Shown here: piece after piece, positions 26,401 to 45,979 of the stretch
Layout of the letters: the number at the start of each line of letters is the position of its first letter
How positions within the stretch are numbered: the first letter of the stretch is position 1
Assembly (NCBI RefSeq): GCF_024138715.1
Contig: NZ_CP092074.1
Location: forward strand, 3,410,001 to 3,474,000
Direction: 5' to 3'
From: Emticicia sp. 21SJ11W-3
GTDB taxonomy: Bacteria; Bacteroidota; Bacteroidia; Cytophagales; Spirosomataceae
Length of the DNA stretch: 64,000 bases
The notes under the pieces: model-generated
Told to the model about the DNA's origin: nothing
What the model saw: only the letters and a program-made list of their open reading frames with translations
Database searches by the model: none
Translations under genes and position numbers: made by a program

Positions 26401-26755
26401 TACATTTGGTGAGGTTAACGCACAACGATATAACAAGCTGGCAGGCCTTGATTACTGGACCAGCGAAAACCCTTCGAACACGTATTTCGGGGTTGCAGTA
26501 GCAAACCCATACCGCAGTGCAATCAACTATCAGGATGCCAGTTTCTTAAGAATCTCTGACATCACACTGGGCTATAATGTACCTCGTAATCTGATGGAAA
26601 AATGGAAACTCTACAATGCCCGGGTTTATACTCAGGTAACCAATCCGATTATTGTTACCAAGTTTATCGGTTTTGACCCTGAATTCAACTCAGCCATTTA
26701 TCAGGACGACGTACCATCGGTTACTTTCAGCCTGGGTGTTAATCTTAGTTTCTAA
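23411..26755 (+). CDS. susC: SusC/RagA-type TonB-dependent outer-membrane transporter
   Basis: This 1114-aa protein imports glycan fragments through the outer membrane, working with SusD as its lid. A signal peptide covers about 1-37. An STN signalling domain (about 40-118, QRISIRANNDNLKAMLSFIE) can contact FecR. A carboxypeptidase-like domain follows (about 147-225, VTGKVTDEKGEGIPGVSVVV), then a TonB-plug (about 228-345, DEVVVIGYGEQKKSDLTGAV) with the SusC signature DASSTAIYGARGANGVVIIT, and a 22-strand-type barrel to the end. The STN domain indicates that transport and signalling are coupled. susD begins 20 bp downstream. The gene is the first of an 11-gene run reaching 45062. The likely cargo is inferred from the enzymes downstream. 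Confidence 0.97.
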   Translation: MKEYFSPFFLKKLMRVSFIQVLFSLIGLGISYAHTANGQEVLEQRISIRANNDNLKAMLSFIEQSASVKFVYNPREINIGQKVSFEARNETLKSVLAKICKPLQISYEVKGKQIMLYKEVASLLKEPEVIVAGPVVEEEKPLRIVTGKVTDEKGEGIPGVSVVVKGTTKGVTTDVEGIYKLDVPNETTILVFSYVGYVTQEIVTGNRSAIDVKLLPDDKSLDEVVVIGYGEQKKSDLTGAVASMQTKDIIRANPVLASKALQGQVAGATVTKSDNRPGSSYNITIRGENTINNSTAPLIVIDGLMGGDINNLNPNDIQSMDVLKDASSTAIYGARGANGVVIITTKKGLSGKPRVNYDSYVGVKVPAHLPKLMNSEQFYKATYTDRILEGVAEAKFTSLELDNIKNGRSTDWVDLVTDPGVQTNHSLSVSGGNEKTTYRFSGGFLNEDGNVLSTNFKRYNLNAGLDSKLGERFKVGFTSYATFSVQNLGSQESLRGAYRVRPTGVPYYSDLTNPSENQDINVNGLAIWMGINDKQVPNPLSDVDPNQSKLRTRVSNIMANAYVEYTPVKGLSIRSSLSSTYGTTQIGDFRGMWSKSQTGNKPRAQLDNRVIGSYTLDNIINYNLTLGQHKINLTGLQSAFYQRNEASSIAAKDLPYDSDWYALNTGTVTAFSSSLVERSLSSYMGRINYTFRDKYLFTATGRSDGASQLAAGNKWAFFPSVALAWRVIDESFMQNIKALSNLKLRLSYGEVGNSTVAPYSTQAGLINTGYDFDGTAAYGFAPSNLGNKDLRWERSKELNLGLDFGLFGNRISGTVELYDRKTQDLILSQKIPTTSGFSQVVSNVGKIQNKGIEILLNTVNIATTDFSWNTTLTFTKNNNKLLELYGNGQMADKGNNLFVGYPIRANFDYKFNGIWQLADKDLALKYNQVPGSVRVVDQNNDGIISSTEGKDDRVYLGSELPNFLMGMTNRFKYKNFDFSFFAYYRNGTLYNNKTLSGTFGEVNAQRYNKLAGLDYWTSENPSNTYFGVAVANPYRSAINYQDASFLRISDITLGYNVPRNLMEKWKLYNARVYTQVTNPIIVTKFIGFDPEFNSAIYQDDVPSVTFSLGVNLSF

Positions 26756-28706: not shown

Positions 28707-30074
28707 ATGAATAATTTAATAAAAACAGCATTTGTGGCAATGCTGCTGGCCAGCTTTACCACTCATGCACAATGGAAAGACCTCTTTAACGGCGCAGACC
28801 TGAAAGGCTGGATAAAACGCAACGGAAACGCCGAGTACAGAATTGAAAACAAGACCATTATCGGGGTTTCGAGGCTCAACACACCCAACACCTTTTTATG
28901 CACCGAAACACTATATGCCGATTTTGTGCTTGAAATGGATGTAAAAGTTGACATCGGCCTTAACTCGGGTATTCAGATACGCAGCATCAGCGACCCCGCA
29001 GTTATGAATGGCCGCGTGCATGGGTATCAGGTAGAGATAGACCCCGCCCCCCGTGCCTGGAGTGGCGGTATTTACGATGAAGCCCGCAACGGCTGGTTGT
29101 ATCCGATGTCGGCCAACCCGCAGGGAAGAGTGGCTTTCAGAAACGGGCAATGGAACCGCTATCATATTGAGGCCATAGGGCCCAATATCAAGACCTGGAT
29201 AAACGGCATACCCTGTGCCAACGTGCTTGACGCCCAAACCGCCCGCGGTTTAATAGCCCTGCAGGTACATCAGATAAAAAGACCCGAACAGGAAGGCCTG
29301 ACAGTACAATGGAAGAACATCAGAATAGCAACAGATAACCTGAATGAAGTAGTTTTTAAAGGCGAAGAAGCACCCGAAGTAAGTTACCTGCCCAACAGGC
29401 TCACTGAAAATGAAATAAGAAAAGGCTGGCGTTTACTTTGGGACGGCAAAACTGCCAACGGCTGGCAAGTTGCCAATGGCAGTGGTTTCCCGGCGGCGGG
29501 CTGGGTTATGGAAGATGGTGTATTGAAAGTGCTGGGCTCTAAAAAAGACAGCGTACGTAAGGGCGGAGACATTGAAACCATTCAGGTTTTTTCAGATTTT
29601 GAGCTGGAGCTAGACTTCCGGCTTACCAAAGGAGCAAATAGTGGATTGAAATATTTTGTAGTAAATGACCCAAAAAGAAAAGCAGGTACAGGATTAGGGC
29701 CGGAGTTTCAGCTTCTGGACGATGATGTACACCCTGACGCCAAAGCAGGTGTAAACGGAAACAGAACTACGGCCTCCCTGTATGACCTCATTACTGCCGA
29801 AAACCTGTCGGAAGGCAGTAAAGAAAAACGTATCAATCCGCCGGGTAAGTGGAACAAGCTAAGGATAGTATCCAGAAACGGCCATGTTGAACACTGGCTC
29901 AATAACCTGAAAATGGTAGAATACGACCGCCATTCGCAGATTTTCCGTAATCTGGTAGCCAAAAGTAAATACAGCACTTACGAAAATTTTGCGCAGGCGT
30001 ATGCAGGGCATATCCTGTTGCAGGACCACGGCGATGAAGTGCATTTCAGAAGTATCAAAATCAGAGAATTCTGA
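28707..30074 (+). CDS. two-domain DUF1080 protein (3-keto-disaccharide hydrolase type)
   Basis: A 455-aa exported protein (signal peptide to about residue 21). Two DUF1080 domains with concanavalin-like folds lie at about 22-208 (WKDLFNGADLKGWIKRNGNA; DIGLNSGIQIRS) and 235-455 (GWRLLWDGKTANGWQVANGS; RLTKGANSGLKYFVVND). Members of this family cleave 3-keto-glucosides by elimination and hydration, after an oxidoreductase makes the keto sugar. It is the first gene after susCD. An oxidoreductase of the Gfo/Idh/MocA type is found at 37479. Whether both domains are catalytic is unclear. It could instead be only a binding protein. Confidence 0.9.
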   Translation: MNNLIKTAFVAMLLASFTTHAQWKDLFNGADLKGWIKRNGNAEYRIENKTIIGVSRLNTPNTFLCTETLYADFVLEMDVKVDIGLNSGIQIRSISDPAVMNGRVHGYQVEIDPAPRAWSGGIYDEARNGWLYPMSANPQGRVAFRNGQWNRYHIEAIGPNIKTWINGIPCANVLDAQTARGLIALQVHQIKRPEQEGLTVQWKNIRIATDNLNEVVFKGEEAPEVSYLPNRLTENEIRKGWRLLWDGKTANGWQVANGSGFPAAGWVMEDGVLKVLGSKKDSVRKGGDIETIQVFSDFELELDFRLTKGANSGLKYFVVNDPKRKAGTGLGPEFQLLDDDVHPDAKAGVNGNRTTASLYDLITAENLSEGSKEKRINPPGKWNKLRIVSRNGHVEHWLNNLKMVEYDRHSQIFRNLVAKSKYSTYENFAQAYAGHILLQDHGDEVHFRSIKIREF

Positions 30075-30115
30075 TGCGGGCAGTTGCACTTCATTAACCC
30101 TATTCTTTTAGTATC

Positions 30116-31822
30116 ATGAACAGAAGAACATTTGTCAATACCGGAATCCTCTCGGTTTGTTCAGTACCATTCCTGAACCTGAGCGCAGGCGCCTCTGTGC
30201 CTGACCAGAAACCCGCCTGGATTGTGGATTGGATAAAAATAAATGAGGCACAGCTACCCGGTTTCAGGGCGCTGAAAGTAACCGACCCCAACCATAGATA
30301 CTTTGGTGGCTACACCGACCACGTAGAGATACCTAACCCACACACTACCAGCAGTTTTATTGCCAAAGCCTGTATGCTTATGGCCTGCCCTGAGTCAGTT
30401 TATTATCAGTCGGCAGATACCCTGAAAGAAGTAGAGGCCGCCGCCGCGGCCATGCTGAAGTTTCAGCATACCGACGGCACCATTGACCTGCTGGCCACTA
30501 ATTTTCATTCAACGCCCGACACCGCCTTTATTCTGGAAAACATGATTCCGGCCTGGCAGTTTCTGAAAAAATCACAAACCAAAGGCGCCGGGCAGTCGCT
30601 GGCTTATATACAGACATTTCTAAAAAACGCCGGAGAAGGCCTCATCAGAGGCGGCATACATACGCCCAACCACCGATGGGTGGTATCGGCTGCCTTAGTA
30701 AGGCTGCATGCGCTTTTTCCGGACAAACGCTACCTGAACCGCATAGACCAATGGTTAGCTGAACACATAGATATTGACCCCGACGGCCAATATACTGAGA
30801 AAAGCACCAATAGTTATTCCCCAATCGTTGACCGCTCGTTGATTACCCTGGCCAGGGGCCTCAGTAAGCCGGAACTTTTAGAACCCGTTCTGAAAAATCT
30901 GGAAATGACCCTCTATTATGTACATCCTAACGGAGAAGTTGTAACTGAGGCCTCGAACCGCCAGGACAAAGGCACCATCGGTAATATGTTTAAATACTAT
31001 TACTGTTACCGATACATGGCGCTAAATAAGAATAACGGCCGGATGGCCGCCATGTGCAGACTGATTGAACAAACCAGCACCCCCCAGGAACTGGCCGGGT
31101 ATCTGGATTATTTTCTGGAAGACCCCACCCTCTGGCAGCCCTTGCCGCCAGACACCCCATTGCCGGTTAATTATGTAAAGGCTTTTCCGTACTCTGGTTT
31201 AGTAAGAATCCGCCACGGAAACTGGGACACCACCTTGCTGAGTAACAACCCCGGCTGGCTCACTTTTCATAAAGGCAATGCTGTGTTGCAGGCTATGCGT
31301 GTGGCTGCTTCGTTTTTCGGAAAAGGGCAGTTTCAGTCTGAAAAAATAGAGCAGAACGGCAACAAATGGGTACTGAAGCGGCATTTGGAAGGCCCCTACT
31401 ACCAACCCCTAGATACAGATAAAATATCGCCCGATGGCGACCTCGATAAAATGCCACGCACGCTCAGAAAACAGAGCGAAATACAGGAATTAAACACAAC
31501 TGTAACCATAACCCCGACTGACAATGGTGTTGATGTGGATTTAAACATAACCGGCACAGACGGTGTGCCGGTTTCACTCGAACTCATTTTCAGGCCGGGT
31601 GGTACTTTTACGGGGGTAACGCCTCATGCGTCACAGCCGCATGCTTATCTTTTCGGTGGGCAAAACGGCTCTTATACATCAGGTAAAGATACCATTCATT
31701 TTTCTTCAGGCCGGATCGAACACAAAGGTGTGCAGTTGCGCGGTGCATTACCCGCAATGGATGCGCCAACGGTTTATCTGACAGGCTTTACGCCTTTTAA
31801 GCATACCATCCGTTTATCCTGA
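30116..31822 (+). CDS. exported protein of unrecognised family, predicted alpha-toroid glycan-active enzyme
   Basis: A 568-aa protein with an RR-containing leader (MNRRTFVNTGILSVCSVPFL) that may be a Tat or Sec signal. Residues 40-340 are helix-rich with repeated motifs (AAAAMLKFQHTDGTIDLLAT, HTPNHRWVVSAALVRLHALF, GTIGNMFKYYYCYRYMALNK). This resembles an alpha/alpha-toroid like those of polysaccharide lyases or unsaturated glucuronyl hydrolases. The last 200 residues look like beta-sandwich (LNTTVTITPTDNGVDVDLNI). No family was assigned. The operon position in the PUL supports action on the glycan, but neither reaction nor substrate is known. Confidence 0.75.
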   Translation: MNRRTFVNTGILSVCSVPFLNLSAGASVPDQKPAWIVDWIKINEAQLPGFRALKVTDPNHRYFGGYTDHVEIPNPHTTSSFIAKACMLMACPESVYYQSADTLKEVEAAAAAMLKFQHTDGTIDLLATNFHSTPDTAFILENMIPAWQFLKKSQTKGAGQSLAYIQTFLKNAGEGLIRGGIHTPNHRWVVSAALVRLHALFPDKRYLNRIDQWLAEHIDIDPDGQYTEKSTNSYSPIVDRSLITLARGLSKPELLEPVLKNLEMTLYYVHPNGEVVTEASNRQDKGTIGNMFKYYYCYRYMALNKNNGRMAAMCRLIEQTSTPQELAGYLDYFLEDPTLWQPLPPDTPLPVNYVKAFPYSGLVRIRHGNWDTTLLSNNPGWLTFHKGNAVLQAMRVAASFFGKGQFQSEKIEQNGNKWVLKRHLEGPYYQPLDTDKISPDGDLDKMPRTLRKQSEIQELNTTVTITPTDNGVDVDLNITGTDGVPVSLELIFRPGGTFTGVTPHASQPHAYLFGGQNGSYTSGKDTIHFSSGRIEHKGVQLRGALPAMDAPTVYLTGFTPFKHTIRLS

Positions 31823-31847
31823 GTCCATACATTCAACTCATTTGCTT

Positions 31848-33848
31848 ATGAACAGAAAATTAGCTCTGCTAGTGTGGCTCGCTATGCTTGCCACTAGCAC
31901 AATTGCGCAAAATACAAAGCCATTATGGCTCGACGACCTGCCCATTAAGTCGTATTCTGAGGGCATACCGGCAGTTTTACCTAAAACCAATGCCGCCGGC
32001 GACCAGATGAAAATAGCCGGTAAAACCTTCTCGCATGGTGTGGGGGTCAGCTCTACAAGTGTGCTGTCGTTTCAGCTGGCAGGGCATGCCGCTTCATTTT
32101 CGGCCATGGTTGGGGTTGACGACCTGGGCATAAAAAATCTGCCGCATCGTTTTTACGTAATTGGCGACAAACAGATACTTTTTGACAGCGGCGAAATGCG
32201 CTGGGGCGATGCCCCCAAGCCTGTAAATGTAAACCTTGCAGGCATACAACGCCTGGGTTTGCTGGTGCTGGTTGATATATATATAAACCGCACCTTTACC
32301 AACTGGGCCGATGCAGCTTTTGTGATGAAAGACAATTTTATACCCGCTACCATACCCAACCAGCAGCAGCGGTACATTCTTACGCCACAACCAGACAAAA
32401 AACCGCGCATCAATTCTGCAGGTGTGTTTGGTGCAAGGCCAGGTAATCCGTTTTTATATACCATTGCCGCCACCGGCCAAAGACCGGTAACGTACTCGGT
32501 TCAAAACCTGCCCAAAGGTTTGTCGGTAGATACCCAAACGGGCATTATCAGCGGTAAAGTAATGCAGAAAGGCACTTATACAGCTAACCTGAAAGTCCGC
32601 AATGCCTTCGGAGAAGCCCAAAAGAAATTAACCATTACCATTGGCGATACCATTGCGCTTACCCCGCCTATCGGCTGGAACGGCTGGAACTCGTGGGCAA
32701 AAAACATTGACCAGCAAAAAGTGAAGGCCTCTGCCGATGCAATGGTAAAAATGGGCCTGAACCAGCACGGCTGGACCTACATTAACATTGACGACGCCTG
32801 GCAGGGGCAGCGTGGTGGTGCATTAAACGCCATTCAGCCTAATGAGAAGTTTCCGGAGTTCAGAAAAATGGTTGATTACATTCATTCGCTGGGTCTGAAA
32901 GTGGGCGTCTATTCAACACCCATGATCACCAGTTATGCAGGGTACATTGGCGGCTCGTCAGATTACCCACACGGCCGCATAACCGATTCCATCAAAAACA
33001 ACAAAAGGGCGTTCAGGTACATAGGCAAATATACTTTTGAAGAGAACGACGCCCGGCAAATGGCCGAATGGGGCATTGATTACCTGAAATATGACTGGCG
33101 GATTGACGTAAAAGCTGCTGAAAAAATGTCGGTGGCACTCAGAAACTCCGGCCGGGATATTGTGTACAGTATTTCAAACTCTGCCCCCTTTGCCTATGCC
33201 AAAGACTGGGCAAGGCTCACCAACAGTTTCAGAACAGGCCCCGACATCCGCGATAGCTGGCTTAGCCTGTATCATTCAGCCTTTACGCTCGACAAATGGG
33301 CTCCCTACGGCGGCCGTGGCCACTGGCTTGACCCCGACATGATGATACTGGGGAATGTAACCACGGGTTCGGCCCTGCACCCTACCCGTCTGACACCCGA
33401 CGAGCAATACAGCCACGTGAGCCTTTTCAGTCTGCTTTCGGCGCCTTTACTGATTGGCTGCCCCATTGAACAGCTCGATGCCTTCACGCTGAATCTGTTA
33501 ACTAATGATGAAGTAATAGAAATAAACCAGGACCCTGCCGGAAAACCCGCCCGGCTGGTTAAAGAAGAAAACGGCGTGCAAACCTGGGTGAAACCGCTGG
33601 CAGACGGCTCTTATGCCATCGGGCTGTTTAATATAGCCTACTATGGGCAAACACCGCAGTCTTATTTCAGATGGGACGATGAAAAAGCTATTCATTACAA
33701 CCTTGATCTGAAGGCACTCGGGTTACAAGGCCGCTATCAGTTGAGAGACGTATGGCGGCAGAAAAACCTGGGTGTTTTCAGCGGGGTTTATCCATGCACT
33801 ATTCAACATCATGGAGTGGTAATGCTCAGAATTTCGCCCGTAAAATAA
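31848..33848 (+). CDS. GH27 alpha-galactosidase with N-terminal NPCBM and Ig-like domains, copy A
   Basis: The ATG at 31848 begins a signal peptide (NRKLALLVWLAMLATSTIAQ); an in-frame TTG at 31842 is less likely. An NPCBM-type carbohydrate-binding domain (about 25-165) and a putative Ig domain (about 185-268) precede a GH27 barrel that starts TPPIGWNGWNSW. The presumed nucleophile is Asp416 in YLKYDWRID and the acid/base is Asp466 in RTGPDIRDSW. GH27 enzymes remove alpha-galactose, or beta-L-arabinopyranose, with retention. A beta-sandwich C-terminal domain ends the protein. The next gene is a paralogue 17 bp downstream. The protein is probably periplasmic. Confidence 0.93.
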   Translation: MNRKLALLVWLAMLATSTIAQNTKPLWLDDLPIKSYSEGIPAVLPKTNAAGDQMKIAGKTFSHGVGVSSTSVLSFQLAGHAASFSAMVGVDDLGIKNLPHRFYVIGDKQILFDSGEMRWGDAPKPVNVNLAGIQRLGLLVLVDIYINRTFTNWADAAFVMKDNFIPATIPNQQQRYILTPQPDKKPRINSAGVFGARPGNPFLYTIAATGQRPVTYSVQNLPKGLSVDTQTGIISGKVMQKGTYTANLKVRNAFGEAQKKLTITIGDTIALTPPIGWNGWNSWAKNIDQQKVKASADAMVKMGLNQHGWTYINIDDAWQGQRGGALNAIQPNEKFPEFRKMVDYIHSLGLKVGVYSTPMITSYAGYIGGSSDYPHGRITDSIKNNKRAFRYIGKYTFEENDARQMAEWGIDYLKYDWRIDVKAAEKMSVALRNSGRDIVYSISNSAPFAYAKDWARLTNSFRTGPDIRDSWLSLYHSAFTLDKWAPYGGRGHWLDPDMMILGNVTTGSALHPTRLTPDEQYSHVSLFSLLSAPLLIGCPIEQLDAFTLNLLTNDEVIEINQDPAGKPARLVKEENGVQTWVKPLADGSYAIGLFNIAYYGQTPQSYFRWDDEKAIHYNLDLKALGLQGRYQLRDVWRQKNLGVFSGVYPCTIQHHGVVMLRISPVK

Positions 33849-33865
33849 TCTAACGACCCCCTACT

Positions 33866-35881
33866 ATGTTCAGAATAAATTTTTTCGCCTTAACCTTTAC
33901 ACTATTATGGTCCGTCGCCGGTTTTGCCCAGCAAATACAAACCATCTGGCTCGACGACCTGCCGATTCAATCATTCTCTGAAGGACTCAGACCTGCTGTT
34001 GGCAAAAAAAACTATCAGGGAGATACGCTGCGCATCAACGGCCGCAGATACAGCCGCGGTATTGGTGCGCAGTCGCCCTGTGTGTTAGCCTTTGCATTGA
34101 ATGGGCACGCACGCAGTTTTACGGCCTTAATTGGAGCCGACGACATGGGCAATAAAGACCTGCCCCTGACTTTTTATGTACTGGGCGACGGCAAAGTACT
34201 GTTTGAAAGCAAACCCATACGCATTGGAGACACCCCACAGCCTGTTTCGGTAAATCTGCAGGGTATCAAACAACTGGGATTGCTGGTTACCGACCCCGTT
34301 GGTGGCATTAACAACAAAAGAACTTACTGCAACTGGATAGACGCCCGGCTGGAAATGGCAGCCGGACATGCGCCGGAACACGTAATAACCCAAGGCGAAA
34401 AATATATACTTACTCCCAGGCCGTCGGCTAAGCCGCGAATCAATTCAGCCAGATTATTTGGCGCAACACCCGGCAATCCGTTTTTATACACCATTGCCGC
34501 TACCGGCCAAAAACCACTCAGTTTTGCAGCCAGCCCATTGCCTGAGGGGCTGACCATTGACCGCCAGACAGGCATAATTACCGGAAAAGTAACCCAAAAA
34601 GGAACCTATCAGACAACCATTTCGGCACGTAATGCGCTGGGGGTATCTACCCGTAACTTAACCATTGTTATTGGCGATACCATTGCACTTACCCCACCCA
34701 TTGGCTGGAATGGCTGGAACTCGTGGGAGGCTAACATTGACCGCGAAAAAGTGATTGCCTCTGCTGACGCGATGGTGAAATCGGGTCTGAAAGACCACGG
34801 CTGGACCTACATAAATATTGACGACGCCTGGCAGGGTGAACACAGCGGCCCGGAATCGGCCTTGCAACCGAACAGTAAGTTTCCGGACATGAAAGGCCTG
34901 TTTGACTACATCCATTCATTGGGGCTGAAAGCCGGGCTCTACTCAACCCCATATATATCAAGCTATGGCGGATACGCCGGGGCATCGTCTGACTTTGAGA
35001 AAGGTGGCGAGAACCATGAGTCTATCATCGTAAACCGCCGGTCATTTAACCGCATTGCCAAATACAGATTTGAAGAAGCCGATGCCCGGCAAATGGCAGC
35101 ATGGGGGGTAGATTTTCTGAAATATGACTGGCGGATTGACGTAAACTCTGCCGAAAGAATGCGCAATGCCCTCAACAAGTCGGGGCGTGATGTGGTCTTC
35201 AGCCTTTCAAATAATGCCCCGTTCGACAAAGTAAAAGATTGGGTGCGTACCTCAAATATGTACCGCACCGGGCCAGATATTAAAGACAGCTGGACAAGCC
35301 TTTATATGACTTCTTTCTCGCTCGACAAGTGGTCGCCCTACAGCGGGCATGGCCATTGGGCAGACCCCGACATGATGATTGTAGGCAAGGTAGCCATTGG
35401 CTCTGAGATGCACGATACCCGCCTGACACCCGACGAACAATACAGCCACGTGAGCTTGTTCAGCCTGCTGGCTGCCCCGCTGCTGATTGGCTGCCCCATT
35501 GAACAGCTGGACGATTTCACGCTTAATCTGCTATCGAACGATGAAGTGATAGAAATTAATCAGGACCCACTGGGCAAAGCTGCCCGGCTGATAGCCAACA
35601 AAAACGGCGTTGAAATATGGAAAAAACCACTGGAAGACGGCTCTTTTGCCATTGGCCTTTTTTACACCGCCGACTTCGGCAAAAGTCCGCAGTCTTATTT
35701 TCACTGGGGTAACGAAAAACCCACCGTTTTCACCCTCAATCTGGCTGAAATAGGCCTGAGCGGCAACTATCAGCTTCGCGACGTCTGGCGGCAGAAAAAC
35801 CTGGGGCGTTTCAGTAGTACTTTTAAAACCCCCATCAGGCATCATGGGGTGGTGCTGCTAAGGGCAACACCTGTCAAATAA
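33866..35881 (+). CDS. GH27 alpha-galactosidase with N-terminal NPCBM and Ig-like domains, copy B
   Basis: A 671-aa paralogue of the upstream GH27 gene with the same domain order: signal peptide, NPCBM (about 26-165), Ig-like domain (about 190-270), GH27 barrel from PPIGWNGWNSW, and a C-terminal sandwich. The catalytic residues are Asp421 in FLKYDWRID and Asp471 in RTGPDIKDSW. The catalytic domain is close to copy A. The N-terminal 100-200 residues are less similar, and the loop after YISSYGGYAG differs (FEKGGENHES versus YPHGRITDSI). The loop difference suggests related but distinct substrates or linkages. It starts 17 bp after copy A and is followed by the 513-aa gene at 29 bp. Confidence 0.93.
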   Translation: MFRINFFALTFTLLWSVAGFAQQIQTIWLDDLPIQSFSEGLRPAVGKKNYQGDTLRINGRRYSRGIGAQSPCVLAFALNGHARSFTALIGADDMGNKDLPLTFYVLGDGKVLFESKPIRIGDTPQPVSVNLQGIKQLGLLVTDPVGGINNKRTYCNWIDARLEMAAGHAPEHVITQGEKYILTPRPSAKPRINSARLFGATPGNPFLYTIAATGQKPLSFAASPLPEGLTIDRQTGIITGKVTQKGTYQTTISARNALGVSTRNLTIVIGDTIALTPPIGWNGWNSWEANIDREKVIASADAMVKSGLKDHGWTYINIDDAWQGEHSGPESALQPNSKFPDMKGLFDYIHSLGLKAGLYSTPYISSYGGYAGASSDFEKGGENHESIIVNRRSFNRIAKYRFEEADARQMAAWGVDFLKYDWRIDVNSAERMRNALNKSGRDVVFSLSNNAPFDKVKDWVRTSNMYRTGPDIKDSWTSLYMTSFSLDKWSPYSGHGHWADPDMMIVGKVAIGSEMHDTRLTPDEQYSHVSLFSLLAAPLLIGCPIEQLDDFTLNLLSNDEVIEINQDPLGKAARLIANKNGVEIWKKPLEDGSFAIGLFYTADFGKSPQSYFHWGNEKPTVFTLNLAEIGLSGNYQLRDVWRQKNLGRFSSTFKTPIRHHGVVLLRATPVK

Positions 35882-35910
35882 TTTTATATCTCTATTAATC
35901 GGCAGGCACA

Positions 35911-37452: not shown

Positions 37453-37478
37453 TTTATTCAACCCTACATTATATAAAA

Positions 37479-38804
37479 ATGAGTTCTCGCAGAAATTTTA
37501 TCAGAAACACTGCCGCAACACTAGGCGGATTAGGTTTAATGGAATTGTTGCCCCTTGAAGCGCTGGCATCTATCAGAAAAAAAGTTGCCCCCAGCGACAG
37601 AATCAACGTGGGCCTGATTGGGGTAAAAAACCAGGGCTTTAATAACATAAGGGCATTTCTGAAAATAAATGAAATTAACCTGACAGCCATTTGTGATGTA
37701 GACGACGAACAACTGGACAAACGCAAAGCCGACCTGAGCAAGGCGGGTTTCCCGAATCTGAAAGTGTATAAAGACTACCGCAAAATGCTGGAAGACAAAG
37801 AGCTGGATGCCGTGCTGGTAGCCACACCAGACCACTGGCATTGCCTGCAACTGGTTGACAGCCTGTCGGCCGGTAAGCACGTATATGTAGAAAAACCAGT
37901 GGCCAACTCTATTGCCGAAGCCAAAGCTATGGTACGCGCCGTTGAGGCATCTGGCAAGGTTGTGCAGGTAAACCAGTGGCAACGCAGCCAAAAACACTTT
38001 AAAGATGCCGTTGCGTTTGTAAAATCGGGCCAGTTGGGTACCATCATCAATACCAAAACCTGGATGTACCGCGGCACTACTCCCCTGCCCAATGTGGCCA
38101 ACGGCCCCGTGCCTGCAGGTGTAGACTATGATATGTGGCTGGGCCCGGCACTTAAAAGGCCATTTAATTCCAACCGGTTTCATTACGAGTTCAGGTGGTT
38201 CTGGGACTACGCCGGTGGCCTGATGTGCGACTGGGGGGTGCACCTGATAGACATTGTTTTGTGGGGCATGGGCGCCAGCGAGCCGCTGTCGGTATCGTCG
38301 GTAGGTGGTAAAAGGCTTTTCCCGGACGACCCGCGCGAAACACCGGATTACATTCATGTAACGTATGACTTCGGCTCATTCTCTAACACCTGGGAACACT
38401 ACATGGGCATTGGTGCCGGGCAATATGGCAAAGGCCACGGCATTGCGTTTATTGGCACCAAAGGAACCCTGGTAGTAACCCGCAACGGCTGGGAGGTAAT
38501 ACCTGAAAAAGACGGTAAGGGATTCAGGATGGAGGCCGTTCCGTTGATTGAGAAGTCTGACAACGGGCTGGAACTACACGCCAGAAACTTTGTGGACGTA
38601 ATGAAAAACGGCAAACCTGAACAACTGGCCTGCCCTATACACGCCGGAGCCACCGTGGCCATTAATGCACACATGGGTAATGTATCTCTCAGAAGCGGCG
38701 ACAGAATCCATTGGGATGCCGCCAAAGGAAAATTTGACAACAAAAAGGCCAACGCGCTTATAAAACCAACCTACCATAATGGTTTTGTATTCCCAAAAGT
38801 TTAA
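37479..38804 (+). CDS. Gfo/Idh/MocA-family oxidoreductase with Tat-type leader
   Basis: A 441-aa NAD(P)-binding sugar oxidoreductase or GH109-like enzyme. A twin-arginine leader (SSRRNFIRNTAATLGGLGL) indicates export with bound cofactor. The Rossmann domain contains GLIGVKNQG (about 45-53), and the EKP motif is VEKPVA at about 137-142. The substrate domain has WDYAGGLMCDWGVHLIDIV with the usual Asp/His pair. Family members oxidise or reduce sugar carbons, and the GH109 branch uses NAD in glycoside cleavage. Its place in an operon with a DUF1080 protein suits a 3-keto sugar route. GH109 versus dehydrogenase cannot be settled by eye. Confidence 0.9.
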   Translation: MSSRRNFIRNTAATLGGLGLMELLPLEALASIRKKVAPSDRINVGLIGVKNQGFNNIRAFLKINEINLTAICDVDDEQLDKRKADLSKAGFPNLKVYKDYRKMLEDKELDAVLVATPDHWHCLQLVDSLSAGKHVYVEKPVANSIAEAKAMVRAVEASGKVVQVNQWQRSQKHFKDAVAFVKSGQLGTIINTKTWMYRGTTPLPNVANGPVPAGVDYDMWLGPALKRPFNSNRFHYEFRWFWDYAGGLMCDWGVHLIDIVLWGMGASEPLSVSSVGGKRLFPDDPRETPDYIHVTYDFGSFSNTWEHYMGIGAGQYGKGHGIAFIGTKGTLVVTRNGWEVIPEKDGKGFRMEAVPLIEKSDNGLELHARNFVDVMKNGKPEQLACPIHAGATVAINAHMGNVSLRSGDRIHWDAAKGKFDNKKANALIKPTYHNGFVFPKV

Positions 38805-38858
38805 ATTTCTGGTGATATAGATTTGTTCAGTTTTTTCAATCAATCCACCTTTAATTGC

Positions 38859-41126
38859 ATGAGAAGCTTAGCGCCTGCCATTCTGTTATTATTATTATTT
38901 TTTGAAGCCCGCTGTCAGGAACCTTTTCGCTTGCGGACAGATAAGCTGCTGAATACCCATCAGGTTTACGAAAGGGGCTTTCTGGTCGACATACCGCTTG
39001 ATTCGGCCCTAAAACAGCAAAGGTATTATCAGTTTGCCTATATAAGCAACCCAAAACCGGTATTAAGCTGGGAAACACCCCGGGAGGCCGGCGGCGTAAC
39101 TGCCTGCCAGATTCTGGTAGCCACTGATGACCGGCTGCTGCAAAGCAACCGTGCCGACTTGTGGGATTCGCAAAAAATCAGTTCCCGTAAAAATCAGGTG
39201 GTTTATCAGGGCAAACCGCTTAGACCCGGCACTATTATTTACTGGAAAGTGCGCACCTGGAACCAAAAAGGCGTTGCCTCGGCCTATTCGGCAACAGCAG
39301 CCTTTTATCTGAGCGAACCTGACCCCGCCGAGCCGTTTGCCCACCAGCCGCTGTTGGCAGAAATGCAACAACCCCGGCAGATAATAAAAACCACGGCAAA
39401 CAGCTATTTTTTTGACTTCGGGAAAGATGCACTGGCGCAGATATCTTTGCACCTGACAAGCCCTGTAACTGATTCAATCTGGATTGAAGTGGGCGAAGCA
39501 TTGGAAAAACCCGGAGTAATAAACAAAAACGCCGGTAGAAACATCCGCTATCATCAACAAAGAATACGGGTGAAGGCCGGTAAGCACAGCTACGTGATAA
39601 ACTGGCTACCCAACGAAAAACGGAATAGCCGGAATCCGGTTCAGATGCCCGCTTATATAGGCGAGGTGTATCCTTTCAGGTATTTGAGCCTGCATAACTT
39701 TCAGGGCAGCATCAACCCGCAATCTGTACAAAGAAAAATAGTTTTTTATCCGTTTGATGAAACCGCTTCTTCATTCAGCTCGGCAGATACGGTACTGAAC
39801 CAGATATGGGACCTCTGCAAGTATTCAATGAAAGCCACCAGCTTTACCGGTTATTATGTAGACGGCGACCGCGAGCGGGTTCCTTACGAGGCCGATGCGC
39901 TGATTAATCAGTTGTCGCACTATGCGGTTGATGCCGAATACAGCATTGGCAGGCGGTCGATGAATTACCTTATTTATCACCCTACCTGGCCCACCGAATG
40001 GAGCCTGCAAAATGTATTGATAGCCTGGAACGATTATCAATACACAGGCGATGACCTGCTGCTCAGAAAATACTACACCGAACTGCAGCACAAAATACTG
40101 ATGCCACTTGCCGGTCCGGACGGCCTGATAAGCACCCGAACCAATAAACAAACCGATGATTTTCTGAAGACCATTCATATAACCGCCACGTTTGATAACC
40201 GCCGCGGCCTGCATGACAATGTAGACTGGCCTCAAACCGGCGACTACATTGGTACCGAAAAAGAATATAAAGGAGAAACCGATGGCTTTGTGTACAATAC
40301 CTATAACGCGGTTATTAACGCCTATTATTACCGTAATCTGGTATTGATGAGCCAGATAGCCGCCATACTGGGCAAAACAGCCGACGCACAATTGTATGCC
40401 ACTAAAGCAGCAGCGGTTTCGGGCGCTTTTCTGAAAACGTTTCAGGATACCCGCACGGGCTTAATAAAAGACGGCGACAGCACCAGCCACACCTCTTTAC
40501 ATGCCAATATGTTTGCACTGGCCTTTGGGCTGGTGCCGCCAAAAGACAAGGCAAAGGTGGTGCAGTTTATTAAAACCCGAAAAATGGCTTGCAGCGTGTA
40601 CGGCGCACAGTTTCTGATGGATGCCCTCTATGAAGCCGGAGAACCCGACTATGCCCTGCAATTGCTGACATCAACCGCACAGCGCAGCTGGTATAACATG
40701 ATAAGGGTGGGCTCTACCATTACACTTGAAGCCTGGGACAAAGTCTATAAGCCGAATCTGGACTGGAACCACGCCTGGGGCGCAGCGCCCGGTAATATTA
40801 TTGTGCGGAAGCTGATGGGTGTAGAACCCCTTGAACCGGGTTTTACTACTTTCAGTATAAAACCACAGCCGGGCAGCCTGGCATGGACATCGCTTAAAAC
40901 CCCTACCATCAAGGGTCCTGTGCAGGTTTCTTTCAATAGAACCGCCACAGTATTTACCATGAAAGCAGAGGTACCCGGTGGCACGCGGGCCATGATTTAC
41001 ATACCTGCCGATACAACCAAAAAGCAACTGACCATTAACGGGCAAGCAAGCCGCATAAAACCCGGTAACGGTTATTATATAATACCCAATGCAGGCCCCG
41101 GCCACTATACATTTGAACTGAAGTAA
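38859..41126 (+). CDS. GH78-type alpha-L-rhamnosidase
   Basis: The ATG at 38859 opens the signal peptide (RSLAPAILLLLLFFEARC), so the upstream TTG at 38823 is not used. The 755-aa protein has an N-terminal fibronectin/sandwich region (about 30-160), a CBM67-like or jelly-roll part (about 165-300) and an alpha/alpha-barrel from about 305. The catalytic-loop segment VDGDRERVPYEAD lies at about 334-346, where typical GH78 has the DxxRxE-GWTGD pattern, and Glu339 is the likely acid. SHTSLHANMFALAFGL and LEPGFTTFSIKPQPG near the end also fit GH78. It should release alpha-rhamnose. The VPYEAD loop replaces the common GWTGD, so specificity may differ. The stop overlaps an ATG of the sulfatase frame. 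Confidence 0.85.
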   Translation: MRSLAPAILLLLLFFEARCQEPFRLRTDKLLNTHQVYERGFLVDIPLDSALKQQRYYQFAYISNPKPVLSWETPREAGGVTACQILVATDDRLLQSNRADLWDSQKISSRKNQVVYQGKPLRPGTIIYWKVRTWNQKGVASAYSATAAFYLSEPDPAEPFAHQPLLAEMQQPRQIIKTTANSYFFDFGKDALAQISLHLTSPVTDSIWIEVGEALEKPGVINKNAGRNIRYHQQRIRVKAGKHSYVINWLPNEKRNSRNPVQMPAYIGEVYPFRYLSLHNFQGSINPQSVQRKIVFYPFDETASSFSSADTVLNQIWDLCKYSMKATSFTGYYVDGDRERVPYEADALINQLSHYAVDAEYSIGRRSMNYLIYHPTWPTEWSLQNVLIAWNDYQYTGDDLLLRKYYTELQHKILMPLAGPDGLISTRTNKQTDDFLKTIHITATFDNRRGLHDNVDWPQTGDYIGTEKEYKGETDGFVYNTYNAVINAYYYRNLVLMSQIAAILGKTADAQLYATKAAAVSGAFLKTFQDTRTGLIKDGDSTSHTSLHANMFALAFGLVPPKDKAKVVQFIKTRKMACSVYGAQFLMDALYEAGEPDYALQLLTSTAQRSWYNMIRVGSTITLEAWDKVYKPNLDWNHAWGAAPGNIIVRKLMGVEPLEPGFTTFSIKPQPGSLAWTSLKTPTIKGPVQVSFNRTATVFTMKAEVPGGTRAMIYIPADTTKKQLTINGQASRIKPGNGYYIIPNAGPGHYTFELK

Positions 41127-41152
41127 TGCAACAAGAATCATTTTTTCTGACC

Positions 41153-42664
41153 ATGAATAAAAAAAACACCCTCTGCACCCTGCTATGCTTTTTTGTGCTG
41201 TCGGCAGGTTTTGCGCAGAAACCCAACATAGTTTACATACTGGCTGACGATCTGGGTATCGGAGACGTATCATCTTACAACCCTAATGGTAGAATTTATA
41301 CCGAAAACATTGATAAACTGGCGCAATCGGGGGTTCGGTTTACTGATGCCCACACTACCTCGGCCGTTTGCACCCCTACCCGTTACAGTATTATGACAGG
41401 CCGTTACAACTGGCGCACCACCATGAAAAAAGGTGTGCTGCACGGTTATGACACCCCATTGATAGACCCAAAACGCGAAACTGTGGCATCTTACCTAAAA
41501 AAGCAGGGCTATAAAACGGGTATGGTGGGCAAATGGCACCTGGGCATGACCTGGGGCAACATTGAAGCAGGCGAAAAAAAGGTGGATTTCAGCAAGCAGG
41601 TGCGTAACAGCCCGAACAGCAATGGTTTCGACTACTCGTTCATTATTCCTGCGTCTTTAGATATGCCCCCTTATGCCTACGTAGAAAACGGCTTCTGTAC
41701 AGCTATACCCAAAGATACCTGCGAAGGCCGCAAAGGCATTGAGCTGTTCAGAGCTGGCATAAGCGCCCCCGATTTTAAACCGGAAGATGTCATTGGCAGG
41801 TTTACAGAAAAGGCGCTGTCGTTCATCAACCAGAACGCCAATAAAGAAAAACCCTTCTTTTTGTATTTTCCGCTGGCGGCGCCGCATACGCCTGTGCTAC
41901 CAATCGGCGATTTTGTGGGCAAAAGCAAGGTGTCTCCCTATGGCGATTTTGTACTGATGGTAGATGACGTAGTAAAACAGGTAGTGGCTACTCTGAAAAA
42001 GAACGGTATTTACGACAACACCCTTATTGTTTTTACGTCAGACAACGGCTTTGCCAATTCGGCCAACCTGCAGGCGCAACTATCAAAAGGGCATAATCCG
42101 TCTATAGATTACCGCGGGCTGAAAACCGACATTTACGAAGGTGGCCATCGTGTGCCTTTTATTGTTCATTGGGGCAAGGTAATAAAAACCGGAAAAGTGT
42201 CAGACCAGTTGCTTTGCAGCACCGATTTTTTCAGAACCGTAGCCGAGCTGAACAAAACCAGCCTGAAAGACAACGTGGCCGAAGACAGCTACAGTTTTTT
42301 AAGCGAATTAACAGGCCGTAAACCTACCCATGCCCCGCGTGCTTCGGTTATTCATCATTCGTCTAACGGATATTTTGCTATCAGAAAAGGTAAATGGAAA
42401 CTGATTATGTGTTCGCACTCGGGCGGTAACGGCAAACCCAAAGAAGACAGCGAAGAAGCAAAATCGCTACCGCCGATTCAGCTCTATGACCTGTCGGCAG
42501 ACATAGCCGAAACCCGGAATGTGTACGCCGCACACCCTGAAGTAGTAAAAGAACTGACCGCCCTGCTTACCAAAAATGTAAAAGATGGCCGAAGCACACA
42601 AGGTAAAATACGAACCAACGACGGCCCTGCCTACTGGAGCCAGCTTACCTGGCTGGGTAAATAA
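41153..42664 (+). CDS. type I sulfatase, Cys type
   Basis: A 503-aa exported sulfatase (start 41153; an ATG at 41126 overlapping the previous stop is in frame). The signal peptide is NKKNTLCTLLCFFVLSAGFA. The first metal-binding segment is PNIVYILADDLGIGD at about 24-38. The modification site is Cys73 in VCTPTRYSIMTGRY, matching CxPxR. That Cys must be turned to formylglycine by a maturation enzyme, which is not encoded in this window. TSDNGFAN and RVPFIVHWGK are typical later motifs. It would remove sulfate esters from the glycan before or after the glycosidases act, so it implies a sulfated target. The position (O2, O3, O6) is not predictable. Confidence 0.93.
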   Translation: MNKKNTLCTLLCFFVLSAGFAQKPNIVYILADDLGIGDVSSYNPNGRIYTENIDKLAQSGVRFTDAHTTSAVCTPTRYSIMTGRYNWRTTMKKGVLHGYDTPLIDPKRETVASYLKKQGYKTGMVGKWHLGMTWGNIEAGEKKVDFSKQVRNSPNSNGFDYSFIIPASLDMPPYAYVENGFCTAIPKDTCEGRKGIELFRAGISAPDFKPEDVIGRFTEKALSFINQNANKEKPFFLYFPLAAPHTPVLPIGDFVGKSKVSPYGDFVLMVDDVVKQVVATLKKNGIYDNTLIVFTSDNGFANSANLQAQLSKGHNPSIDYRGLKTDIYEGGHRVPFIVHWGKVIKTGKVSDQLLCSTDFFRTVAELNKTSLKDNVAEDSYSFLSELTGRKPTHAPRASVIHHSSNGYFAIRKGKWKLIMCSHSGGNGKPKEDSEEAKSLPPIQLYDLSADIAETRNVYAAHPEVVKELTALLTKNVKDGRSTQGKIRTNDGPAYWSQLTWLGK

Positions 42665-42677
42665 TATAGATTGAAAA

Positions 42678-45062
42678 ATGTTTCAGAGAATGAATATAAA
42701 TAAATATACGCTTACTTTTTTTGTAACCCTGGCAGCGTTGAGCGCCGCTTTCGCCCAAAAAATAAGACCCGTTGACCGTGTGAATCCGTGGGTTGATGCC
42801 GCCAATTCGCGCTGGTTTTTTTTCAACTCTGCCACCAGACCTTTCGGCATGGTTAACCTGAGCCCGGATACTGGCGTTAATTCAGACTGGGGTTCAGGCT
42901 ATCGTTATCATTCAGACAGCATCAGGTGTTTCAGCCATTTGCACGACTGGCAGTTGTCTGGCATACCGGTTATGCCAACCGTTGGCGCGTTTAACGGCCA
43001 TAAAGGTAACCAGCAATATGGGTCGCGGTTTTCGCACCAGACAGAAGTAGTAAAGGCGGGGTATCATAAAGTATTGCTGGATGCCTACCAGATAACCGCC
43101 GAACTGACCTCAACCACCCGTGTGGGGTTTCACAGGTACACCTTTCCTGAGTCAGACCAGAGCCATATTCTGTTCGACTTCTCTACTTTTCTGGGGCCGT
43201 CAGATACCCAGAAAGGTTATGTAAAAAAAGTAAGTAGTCAGGAACTGGAAGGCTACGCCATTATGGCGCCCACTACCCGCCGACCCAAAACCCTGACCGT
43301 ATTTTTTGTAGCCGTTTTTGATAAACCATTTGATACCCTGAAAGGATGGCGCAAAGGCCAGTTGGAAGAAGTAGATAAAGTAATAGAAGGAGAAAAAACC
43401 GGGGTTTACGTCAGCTTTAAAACCAGAAAAAATGAAGTAAGACGCATGAAAGTGGGCGTATCGCTGGTAAGTGAAGAACAGGCTCGCCTGAACCTGAAAA
43501 CTGAATTGCCACACTGGGACTTTGACAAAACAGTGGCCGACAGCCAGAATGACTGGAACAGCTGGCTAAGCCGCATTGAAATTGAAGGTGGAACCGAAAC
43601 AGAGAAAAGCCGCTTTTATACCGACCTGTGGCACGCACTGCTGGGCAGAAGAATTATATCTGACGTAAACGGAAAATATGCCGACATGACAGGCCCCGAA
43701 CGCCTCATTAAACAAATACCACTGGGTGCCGACGGTAAACCTAAATTTAACCACCATAACTTTGATGCCCTGTGGGGTGCACAGTGGTCGCTTAATACGC
43801 TGTGGCATCTGGTGTACCCTGAAGTAACGGAATCGTTCGTTAACTCAATGCTGCTGATGTATGCCGACGGTGGGCTGATACCCCGTGGCCCGGCAGGTGG
43901 TAATTATACCTTTGTGATGTCTGGCGCGCCCTCAACCCCGTTTATTGTAAGTGCATACCTGAAAGGCATCAGGGGTTTTGATATTGCCAAAGCATACGAA
44001 GGTATGCGGAAAAACCATTTTCCGGGTGGATTGATGAGCAAGGCAGGCTATGAACATAATACCATGAAAGGCGGCGGCATTGAATATTATATTGAGCGCG
44101 GGTATGTGCCGCACCCGCTTACGAACATTAAATACGGGTATCATCAGGATGGGTCAACCCAAACGCTTGAGTATGCCTATCAGGATTACACCCTGGCACA
44201 AATGGCCAAAAGCCTGGGCAAAACAGATGACTACAACCTGTTTATGAAACGCGCCGGCAACTACCGCAATATATATAATGCTGAAATAGGCTGGATGTGG
44301 AACCGCACCCTTGATGGCAAATGGGGCGCGCCGGTTGATATTCTGCGTTATGATAACGGCTGGGAAGAAGGCAATGCCGCACAGTACACCTGGTTTGTAC
44401 CACATGACGTGCAGGGGCTTATTAACCTGATGGGCGGCCGCGAGGCGTTTACCAACAAGCTGAATACCTCTTTTGAGAAAGCAAGCGAACACGATTTTGT
44501 GTCGGGCAAATCTCATGACAAAGAAACCCTTGAACACCTGCGCCGGGTATATATCAACTACGGCAACCAGCCCTGTATGCAAACGCCTTTTCTGTTCAAT
44601 TTTGCCGGTGCACCATGGCGCACCCAGTACTGGACACGCCAGATTATTGATAAGGTGTATAGTGGCATATCGCCAGACTCAGGGTATAGCGGCGACGAAG
44701 ACCAGGGGCTGATGGGAAGCCTGGCCGTATTGCTTAAAACGGGTATATTCTCTACCAGCGGCGGCACTACCCCCAAACCTTATTATGAAATCAGCAGCCC
44801 GGTTTTCAGTAAAATTACTTTTCACCTAAACCCTCAATATTATAAAGGCAGGCAATTTGTGATTGAAGCCCGTAATAACTCTGCCACCAATGTTTACATT
44901 CAGTCGGCACAGCTGAACGGTGCGGCGCTCAACAAACCCTGGGTATGGCACAGCACTGTTACCAATGGCGGCAGGCTGGTGCTGAACATGGGGAAAGACC
45001 CCAACAAAAGCTGGGGCAGCAAGCCTGAGGATGCACCGGAATCGATGTCATCCAATCCTTAA
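42678..45062 (+). CDS. GH92-type exo-alpha-mannosidase-like enzyme
   Basis: A 794-aa exported protein; an alternative ATG lies at 42690. The signal peptide is TLTFFVTLAALSAAFAQ. The N-terminal domain has VNPWVDAANSRWFFFNSATR and RPFGMVNLSPDTG, and CFSHLHDWQLSGIPVMP as the GH92 'FSHLSGTG' equivalent. The catalytic domain includes ALWGAQWSLNTLWHLVYPE. The C-terminal SGDEDQGLMGSLAVL corresponds to the GH92 'GNDDxGQMS' block carrying the base Asp. GH92 enzymes are calcium-dependent inverting exo-mannosidases. The changed SHLHDW and GLMGSL segments suggest a divergent subgroup, so mannose specificity is uncertain. It ends the PUL operon, with a terminator 6 bp after its stop. Confidence 0.85.
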   Translation: MFQRMNINKYTLTFFVTLAALSAAFAQKIRPVDRVNPWVDAANSRWFFFNSATRPFGMVNLSPDTGVNSDWGSGYRYHSDSIRCFSHLHDWQLSGIPVMPTVGAFNGHKGNQQYGSRFSHQTEVVKAGYHKVLLDAYQITAELTSTTRVGFHRYTFPESDQSHILFDFSTFLGPSDTQKGYVKKVSSQELEGYAIMAPTTRRPKTLTVFFVAVFDKPFDTLKGWRKGQLEEVDKVIEGEKTGVYVSFKTRKNEVRRMKVGVSLVSEEQARLNLKTELPHWDFDKTVADSQNDWNSWLSRIEIEGGTETEKSRFYTDLWHALLGRRIISDVNGKYADMTGPERLIKQIPLGADGKPKFNHHNFDALWGAQWSLNTLWHLVYPEVTESFVNSMLLMYADGGLIPRGPAGGNYTFVMSGAPSTPFIVSAYLKGIRGFDIAKAYEGMRKNHFPGGLMSKAGYEHNTMKGGGIEYYIERGYVPHPLTNIKYGYHQDGSTQTLEYAYQDYTLAQMAKSLGKTDDYNLFMKRAGNYRNIYNAEIGWMWNRTLDGKWGAPVDILRYDNGWEEGNAAQYTWFVPHDVQGLINLMGGREAFTNKLNTSFEKASEHDFVSGKSHDKETLEHLRRVYINYGNQPCMQTPFLFNFAGAPWRTQYWTRQIIDKVYSGISPDSGYSGDEDQGLMGSLAVLLKTGIFSTSGGTTPKPYYEISSPVFSKITFHLNPQYYKGRQFVIEARNNSATNVYIQSAQLNGAALNKPWVWHSTVTNGGRLVLNMGKDPNKSWGSKPEDAPESMSSNP

Positions 45063-45067
45063 AATGC

Positions 45068-45097
45068 AAATAACCCGGGTTTTCGCCCGGGTTATTT
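45068..45097. terminator. bidirectional terminator at the end of the PUL operon
   Basis: AAATAACCCGGG (45068-45079), loop TTTTCG, CCCGGGTTATTT (45086-45097) is a perfect 12-bp stem with T-rich flanks on both strands. It separates the convergent GH92 (+) and DUF1080 (-) genes. Confidence 0.9.
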
Positions 45098-45121
45098 TAT
45101 TATTTACCTGCATTTATCTGC

Positions 45122-45901
45122 TTAAAAATCTGTATTGGGTTCTTTCAGGTCAAGGCGTTTTATCCAGATATTTCGGTAAAGCACCTCATGGCCTTCGGCT
45201 TGCAGTTTCAGGCCTCCGGGCGTATCAGTAATACCTTTTCCACCATCGTTTCCCCCATCAATACCCGAATTAGGGCCACCCCATACCTGACTAATTTTGT
45301 GGTTTACATGCACTTTTTTACCGTTAAAGTAAAGTGTAACCATCGGCTGCTCTACGCGTTTACCGTCTTTAAACCGGGCCGCCCTGAACACAATATCGTA
45401 GGCATTCCATTTGCCTACACCCTTGTATGCATAGTAAGGAGACGGGGTTTCGTTGATAACCGCCGCCATACCGTGCGACGTGGTGTCGCCATCAAGCACC
45501 TGAATTTCATAACGGTTTTGCAGATACACCCCGCTGTTGCCCCCCGGCTTGCTGATAAAAAACTCAATGTGCGCCCTGAAGTCGCGGAAAGTGTCTTTCG
45601 TAACTATATCTGCTGCTCCATACTTGCCACCGGCTCCGGCGGGGTCGTTGGTATTCAGTACAGTGCCTTTACCGGCAGGGTCATTTACAAGGTACCATTT
45701 AATGGGCAGCGTGGCCGACAGACGGGGGCCTTCCCAGTAAGTCCATTTGTCATCAAGCATTTTGCGGCTGCCGTCAAAATAAACTACGGCTCCGGCCGGG
45801 GCTTTTACACCTACACCCTTTTGCTGCGCATGGGCAGCCCCCACCGCCACAGACAGCAGCGCCAGAGAATTAACTAAACCTTTGTAAATGTTACGTTTCA
45901 T
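45122..45901 (-). CDS. single-domain DUF1080 protein
   Basis: The ATG at 45901 gives 259 aa with a signal peptide (GLVNSLALLSVAVGAAHAQ); the frame upstream to 45943 is not needed. The DUF1080 domain fills the rest, with FRAHIEFFISKPGGNSGVYL, LQNRYEIQVLDGD and YFNGKKVHVNHK as family-like blocks. It belongs to the same fold as the two-domain gene at 28707 but is a separate lineage. It is read convergently to the PUL on the opposite strand. It may act on 3-keto glycosides made by the oxidoreductase at 37479, or serve an unrelated sugar. Expression independent of the operon is likely because of the terminator between them. Confidence 0.9.
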   Translation of the reverse strand: MKRNIYKGLVNSLALLSVAVGAAHAQQKGVGVKAPAGAVVYFDGSRKMLDDKWTYWEGPRLSATLPIKWYLVNDPAGKGTVLNTNDPAGAGGKYGAADIVTKDTFRDFRAHIEFFISKPGGNSGVYLQNRYEIQVLDGDTTSHGMAAVINETPSPYYAYKGVGKWNAYDIVFRAARFKDGKRVEQPMVTLYFNGKKVHVNHKISQVWGGPNSGIDGGNDGGKGITDTPGGLKLQAEGHEVLYRNIWIKRLDLKEPNTDF

Positions 45902-45979
45902 AGAGTACTGATATATTTTCGGTTGGTTGAATACGTAATTCACAGGTACCTGATTAGCCCGGCGCTCGGTATGAAACTG

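Follow-up and report, generated by a model that had tools for sequence, protein, structure and literature searches.

A SusC/SusD operon of Emticicia sp. 21SJ11W-3 as a candidate for combined hydrolysis, lyase action and oxidation-dependent glycoside cleavage

An operon that, at a probability of about 0.45, would be an inducible polysaccharide utilization locus (PUL) of the SusC/SusD kind, combining hydrolysis, lyase action and a two-step oxidation-cleavage on a sulfated heteroglycan, is described here from a stretch of 64,000 nucleotides of Emticicia sp. 21SJ11W-3 (the window: positions 3410001-3474000 of a single-contig genome of 5.18 Mb; feature coordinates are those of the window, on the + strand unless stated). 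The operon occupies positions 21361-45062, entirely on the + strand, and its genes run in the order sigma factor, FecR, SusC, SusD, a two-domain DUF1080 protein (DUF1080x2; 28707-30074), an orphan protein of 568 residues (P2; 30116-31822), two glycoside hydrolases of family 27 (GH27), a second orphan of 513 residues (P5; 35911-37452), a Gfo/Idh/MocA oxidoreductase (GFO; 37479-38804), GH78, sulfatase and GH92. The neighbouring SusC and SusD genes, accompanied by carbohydrate-active genes on one strand, place it among the PULs; the gaps between genes from SusC to GH92 measure -1 to 71 bp, and this closely spaced, same-strand layout, together with a terminator-like site after GH92, points to a single transcript. 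The gene set, its layout, the family membership of the proteins and their conservation in relatives are read directly from the sequence.

In the scheme proposed for the operon, the GH27, GH78 and GH92 enzymes and the sulfatase would, judging from their family names, remove alpha-galactosyl-, rhamnosyl- and mannosyl-type residues and sulfate, and P2 and P5 may, as their predicted folds suggest, cut or trim the glycan chain; one linkage, perhaps one blocked to hydrolases, would be opened in two steps. In the first of these, the exported GFO would oxidize a ring hydroxyl of a glycoside, most likely that at C3, by means of tightly held nicotinamide adenine dinucleotide (NAD(H)), a proposal based on its clade and its neighbours; in the second, the C-terminal one of the two DUF1080 domains would break the glycosidic linkage of the resulting keto sugar, whether through beta-elimination or through hydrolysis, as suggested by its kinship with BT2157 of Bacteroides thetaiotaomicron, the first domain being possibly a binding or structural half. 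Since the operon contains no AP_endonuc_2-type partner, the keto product would probably be finished by enzymes encoded elsewhere. The cutting of 3-keto glycosides after oxidation by GFO is, in these terms, a candidate activity of the operon.

GFO matches the generic Gfo/Idh/MocA domains of Pfam; the twin-arginine motif found at its start (and at that of P2), together with a TatC encoded in the genome, agrees with the twin-arginine translocation claimed in the initial annotation, the export itself being a prediction. Membership of the same superfamily and a weak sequence match to the GH109 structure 6t2b (E 4.5e-10) would be compatible with a GH109-type NAD-dependent glycosidase; this identity, which is highly improbable, was rejected, as GFO has no Pfam match to the GH109 C-terminal domain PF21252 (the sole GH109_C match of the genome is another gene, outside the operon), falls outside the GH109 clade and differs from it in its motif columns. 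In the phylogeny against GH109 which the initial annotation had proposed, and in which it had regarded a GH109 type without keto product as counter-evidence, all 10 GH109 rows are grouped together (support 99/99) with GFO outside this group; this tree has 50 rows, namely 51 hits less two (a duplicate of the GH109 of this genome and a Gfo row of 330 residues) plus the GFO of the window. A second tree, made up of six of the 10 GH109 rows, all 12 BT2158-type rows, 13 loci of others and 20 added GFO relatives, places GFO inside a 22-row clade of its own (100/99), apart from both the six GH109 rows (100/100) and the BT2158 group (99/99). The dehydrogenase motifs EKP (residues 138-140; 37890-37898) and DWGVH (residues 251-255; 38229-38243) are kept in GFO, and neither EKP nor DxxxH occurs in the aligned columns of any GH109 row (0/10); moreover, the closest PDB chains by sequence, 8tdf (E 6.5e-32) and 8tdh (E 1.7e-29), are both named dehydrogenases. 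The assignment of GFO to the dehydrogenase-type Gfo/Idh/MocA proteins, outside GH109, is thus supported by its sequence.

GFO is equally distinct from the BT2158 family: in the 50-row tree the 12 BT2158-type rows and six others are grouped at 100/100 with GFO excluded, and its top NCBIfam model, 'glycoside 3-dehydrogenase' (NF058561), is matched at 183.8 bits, under a cut-off of 750 bits which is exceeded by 10 of the 12 BT2158-type reference rows and missed by two. Membership of that family was rejected on these grounds, although GFO may nonetheless have a similar function. The same figures favour a reading, doubtful but to be taken seriously, according to which GFO acts as a dehydrogenase of sugars or cyclitols and not as a C3 glycoside oxidase, DUF1080x2 merely hydrolyses glycosides or binds its ligand, and the PUL works by hydrolysis and lyase action with a redox side step (such as product oxidation or epimerization).

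DUF1080x2 matches PF06439 (now named '3keto-disac_hyd') in two stretches, at 270.9 bits against a cut-off of 26.8, and is aligned end to end, over both domains, with PDB 4jqt (E 5e-151). In a tree of 44 DUF1080 domains, from which those under 25 bits or under 100 profile columns were excluded, the clade of the second domain (residues 240-453; 29424-30065) is sister to seven BT2157-type domains, that is, domains adjoining BT2158-family genes, plus one from this genome (91/80); the second domain hence lies in the sister clade, outside the BT2157 clade proper, and the first domain is placed in a distant group. The residues invariant in the seven BT2157-type and nine second-domain rows include D288, E333, D338, H342, D344, R353, D360, H396, E405, K421, D440 and H441, only the last of which is retained by the first domain (six rows); nine of 10 second-domain and six of 10 first-domain rows entered this comparison, and since the invariant columns were set with the second-domain rows included, the result is an agreement and not an independent test. 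Both the residues and the sister position of the second domain argue against the reading with a redox side step, and make of this domain a candidate 3-keto-glycoside lyase or hydrolase.

Beyond the operon, as had been claimed, a terminator-like site (45068-45097; consensus scan, 13-pair stem and T-rich tail) precedes a lone DUF1080 gene on the other strand (45122-45943, - strand; 96.7 bits over profile positions 26-187 of 187). Its inclusion in the same 3-keto logic was not supported, and it is disfavoured as a working partner: of the 12 residues above it retains only D288, E333 and D338, and in the nearest relative, Emticicia sp. BO119, what comes after GH92 is a further SusC/SusD pair, a DUF1080 of a different type lying only about 8 kb past GH92. 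It is only the second domain of DUF1080x2 which, among the DUF1080 domains here, is supported by sequence as resembling the 3-keto-active BT2157 type; the gene content noted initially is confirmed, and the oxidation-elimination reading attached to it is partly supported, through a dehydrogenase-type GFO and a BT2157-like second domain. As a separate observation, the lone DUF1080 stands in the tree closest to rows for DUF1080 genes that adjoin GFO relatives in other genomes, at 31% identity at best and on a long branch.

A new observation of this analysis is that related PULs retain DUF1080x2, GH27 and P5, and that the redox enzyme varies, being this GFO, a Gfo of another clade, a DUF7133-cytochrome c protein, or several of these. 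P5 is present in eight of 11 genomes of the genus and in 11 of 61 genomes of a family sample, in eight of these 11 over most of its length. Among the eight P5-bearing genomes of the genus, this type of GFO occurs in two (the window genome and G065, Emticicia sp. BO119) and DUF7133-cytochrome c proteins in three (G049, G066 and G064, which is Emticicia aquatilis); neither was found in the stretch seen of G062, G067 and G068, G067 having a different cytochrome c protein. The DUF7133 proteins match TIGR02604 ('PVC-type heme-binding CxxCH'), and from this family and the heme one may guess that they are dehydrogenases. In several PULs outside the genus a DUF7133 protein occurs together with another Gfo clade; as this holds for PULs of Spirosoma, Rudanella and Flavobacterium, a strict one-for-one exchange of GFO by DUF7133-cytochrome c proteins was rejected. 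DUF1080x2 was seen in 10 PUL versions (the window, G065, G064, G049, G068, G050, G002, G038, L085 and L095), nine of which hold an oxidoreductase of some kind; in G034 and G017 P5 is accompanied by a DUF7133 protein, DUF1080x2 not having been seen.

Both gene kinds being numerous in the window genome (27 Gfo and 23 DUF1080 matches), some of their proximity is expected by chance, and GFO and DUF1080x2 might be passengers in an ordinary hydrolytic PUL, with no role in glycan cleavage. Indeed, within the genome the proximity of Gfo to DUF1080 alone is not significant (five of 21 against 2.2 expected within 10 kb, p 0.06; two of 21 within 5 kb, p 0.30); when DUF7133 genes are counted along with Gfo, seven of 21 DUF1080 places have one within 10 kb, where 2.8 are expected (p 0.015), but the window itself contributes two of these seven, and clustering within the genome is weak. 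The passenger explanation is nonetheless improbable in view of conservation in relatives: DUF1080x2, 76-85% identical, adjoins SusD in eight of the nine other PULs (in the ninth, G002, an antisense open reading frame is seen there), and Emticicia sp. BO119 has a GFO of 89% identity in the corresponding position.

Of 395 genomes of the class, 22, counting that of the window, have a GFO relative at E <=1e-90, and the neighbourhoods were taken from 20 of the 21 others, at one locus each (G545 was left out). A DUF1080 gene lies within about 10 kb of the GFO relative in six of these 20, against 0.96 expected (p 2.5e-4), and, counted by genus, in four of 18 (p 0.009); the expectation comes from per-genome totals and the observed count from a hidden Markov model scan with matches of at least 40 bits, and the tests treat genes as independently and evenly placed. 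This general enrichment speaks against the redox side step. The order in G075 is fecR-susC-susD-Gfo-DUF1080x2-GFO-heparinase-like-DUF2264, with no classical glycoside hydrolase among the scanned genes of that locus. Around P5, a Gfo or DUF7133 gene is present within 10 kb in 18 of 27 named loci, against 3.7 expected from the gene density of the window genome, not of each host; two of the 27 (L095 and L099) belong to one metagenome-assembled genome, and locus L098 was left out of set A2.

The two orphans, which are absent from the initial annotation, have no match in Pfam or NCBIfam. P5 has none among the PDB sequences either; P2 has six there (E 0.33-0.84), and a profile of it has one (E 1.7), every one of these being judged to be chance. 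An AlphaFold2 model of P5, from a 24-row alignment, has a predicted local distance difference test score (pLDDT) of 90.6, and that of P2, from seven rows, reaches 73.7 and is of moderate confidence. The top PDB matches of the P5 model in Foldseek are glycosaminoglycan and alginate lyases, the best being the glycosaminoglycan lyases 8khw and 8khv (E 8.7e-7); of seven matches at E <=0.001 one is a beta-L-arabinofuranosidase. The top matches of the P2 model are enzymes of polysaccharide lyase families 17 and 33 (PL17 and PL33; E 3.7e-9), among 69 at E <=0.001. Polysaccharide-lyase-like folds, a helical toroid and a beta-sandwich, are accordingly the predicted architecture of both proteins, and their prediction for both orphans is new here; because GH127 and GH146 enzymes match the P5 model too, 'lyase' is for P5 the likeliest reading among others.

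A number of results weigh against the proposed combination of hydrolysis, lyase action and oxidation-cleavage. The lyase folds are those of predicted models, whose best Foldseek matches have TM scores of 0.35-0.58; profile comparison gives no sequence link between P2 and P5, nor between either of them and the heparinase-like protein of G075. One PUL, that of G068 (L076), has DUF1080x2, yet neither a Gfo nor a DUF7133 gene was found over a stretch of about 40 kb, which suits the redox side step. The same is true of the make-up of the DUF1080 enrichment, in which a BT2157-like two-domain DUF1080 accompanies the GFO relative in only two of the 20 other genomes (G101 and G075), three of the six, all of one genus, adjoin a DUF1080 that lacks most of the BT2157-shared residues, like the lone gene at 45122-45943, one (G505) has its DUF1080 about 9 kb off, and the remaining 14 of 20 have none within about 10 kb. 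Nine of the 27 P5 loci (three of them shorter than 18 kb) lack a Gfo or DUF7133 gene near P5, GFO of the window type occurs in only one (BO119), and the within-genome proximity of Gfo and DUF1080 is, as noted, not significant. From the literature, in the portions of the papers available, come the endo-xanthanase activity reported for a DUF1080 protein (PMC10881899), which again favours a side step, and the deletions of BT2157 and BT2158 without growth defect on raffinose-family sugars (PMC11501099).

Some minor features of the related PULs may be recorded. In L025, L066, L075, L080 and others, and not in the window, P5 has a ceramidase-like neighbour (PF05875, from a scan of L025 alone); DUF6797-cytochrome c proteins (L027:16056-18728 and L040:14076-17108) are a further possible redox component in some of them; and at L069:1540-3077, in G068, the P5 paralogue that stands beside P5 is itself split over two open frames, as would result from a disrupted gene or perhaps from faulty assembly.

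The 3-keto glycoside pathway of B. thetaiotaomicron, BT2156-BT2160, is reportedly covered by a 2024 paper in Nature, and presumably uses an AP_endonuc_2-type partner. The operon resembles it in joining a Gfo/Idh/MocA protein, predicted to be exported, to a DUF1080 enzyme, and in that the second-domain clade is sister to the DUF1080 domains beside BT2158-family genes; it differs in that GFO is outside the BT2158 clade, in that no AP_endonuc_2 match is present in the operon or anywhere in the window, and in its SusC/SusD PUL setting with glycoside hydrolases, a sulfatase and lyase-fold proteins. Two other clusters of the genome, at about 1.082-1.086 Mb and 4.944-4.950 Mb, combine Gfo-type, DUF1080 and AP_endonuc_2 genes (the Gfo of that near 1.083 Mb being a distant one), and are in make-up nearer to BT2156-BT2160 than is the operon of the window. 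PULs for sulfated glycans are of a kind having SusC/SusD, a sulfatase and GH27, GH78 or GH92 enzymes; the regulator, SusC/SusD pair, sulfatase and exo-hydrolases of the operon are as in these, whereas GFO, DUF1080x2 and the two lyase-fold orphans are additional, and no PUL with such a combination was found described in a literature search covering titles and the openings of abstracts. With the PL17, PL33 and glycosaminoglycan lyase enzymes, P2 and P5 share the predicted toroid and beta-sandwich, these enzymes being their best Foldseek matches, but show no sequence match beyond chance in Pfam, NCBIfam or the PDB.

Two further systems involve LacABC of Caulobacter, which we take not to be a Gfo/Idh/MocA enzyme, and AtOGE of Agrobacterium, presumably not a DUF1080 protein. 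In the parts of the sources consulted for all the following, the Caulobacter lactose route likewise begins with periplasmic oxidation of a disaccharide, followed by a proposed cleavage by DUF1080 proteins, fitness data linking DUF1080 genes to the use of lactose and raffinose after oxidation; it differs in that another redox enzyme, the membrane-bound LacABC, feeds DUF1080, and no PUL with hydrolases is described in those parts (PMC9007349). The same source cites BT2157 as a 3-ketotrehalose hydrolase, and BT2158 is given elsewhere as a periplasmic glycoside 3-dehydrogenase (PMC11300592). The GlycDH/AtOGE/AtHYD route of Agrobacterium is alike in logic, comprising C3 oxidation, Mn2+-dependent beta-elimination, a suggested hydration and reduction by a Gfo oxidoreductase; its suggested hydratase, AtHYD, goes there under the description of putative sugar phosphate isomerase, and 'DUF1080' does not occur in the text of that paper (PMC10628242). 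The AP_endonuc_2 proteins may be the counterparts of AtHYD.

A wider proposal, rather unlikely as a whole, is that exported 3-dehydrogenases of an uncharacterized Gfo/Idh/MocA clade supply the substrate of a DUF1080 lyase with two domains, that two lyase-fold families as yet unclassified work next to them, and that across relatives different redox enzymes are combined with one unchanging set of cleavage enzymes, so that glycan cleavage would be tied to the recycling of NAD in some species and to respiration in others. If the proposed oxidation-cleavage is right, oxidation-elimination would not be confined to small glycosides, being built into a polymer-degrading PUL in which hydrolysis, and possibly cleavage by lyases, takes place as well. 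The family of PULs offers a natural experiment, with a constant core of DUF1080x2, GH27 and P5 and a changing redox enzyme, and a Gfo clade as well as two families of lyase fold, none with an assigned function, can be assayed directly.

The remaining genes of the operon are as follows. An ECF (extracytoplasmic function) sigma factor (21361-21975) and a FecR-like anti-sigma factor (22043-23125) are open reading frames with similar counterparts at the start of this PUL in relatives; the SusC-like receptor (23411-26755) and the SusD-like lipoprotein (26776-28635) have counterparts in related PULs at 66-89% identity. These four were named from a reading of the sequence, SusC and SusD also from the matches in relatives, the Pfam scan not being behind these names. 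As initially annotated and found by Pfam, the operon holds, besides DUF1080x2, two GH27 proteins (31842-33848 and 33866-35881), each with NPCBM and Ig-like domains and with KYDW and GPDI, which we take to be their catalytic motifs, a GH78 alpha-L-rhamnosidase family protein (38823-41126) and a sulfatase (PF00884; 41126-42664; CTPTR site at residue 82). The enzyme previously called 'GH92-like' (42678-45062) is a genuine GH92 family protein, since both the N-terminal and the catalytic domain (485 bits) match. Elsewhere in the window, two PAS-domain histidine kinases are encoded near the operon (47236-49635 and 54336-57230), together with a DDE transposase (PF13751; 2996-4639) and, on the - strand, a penicillin amidase family protein (PF01804, 413 bits; 58725-60905).

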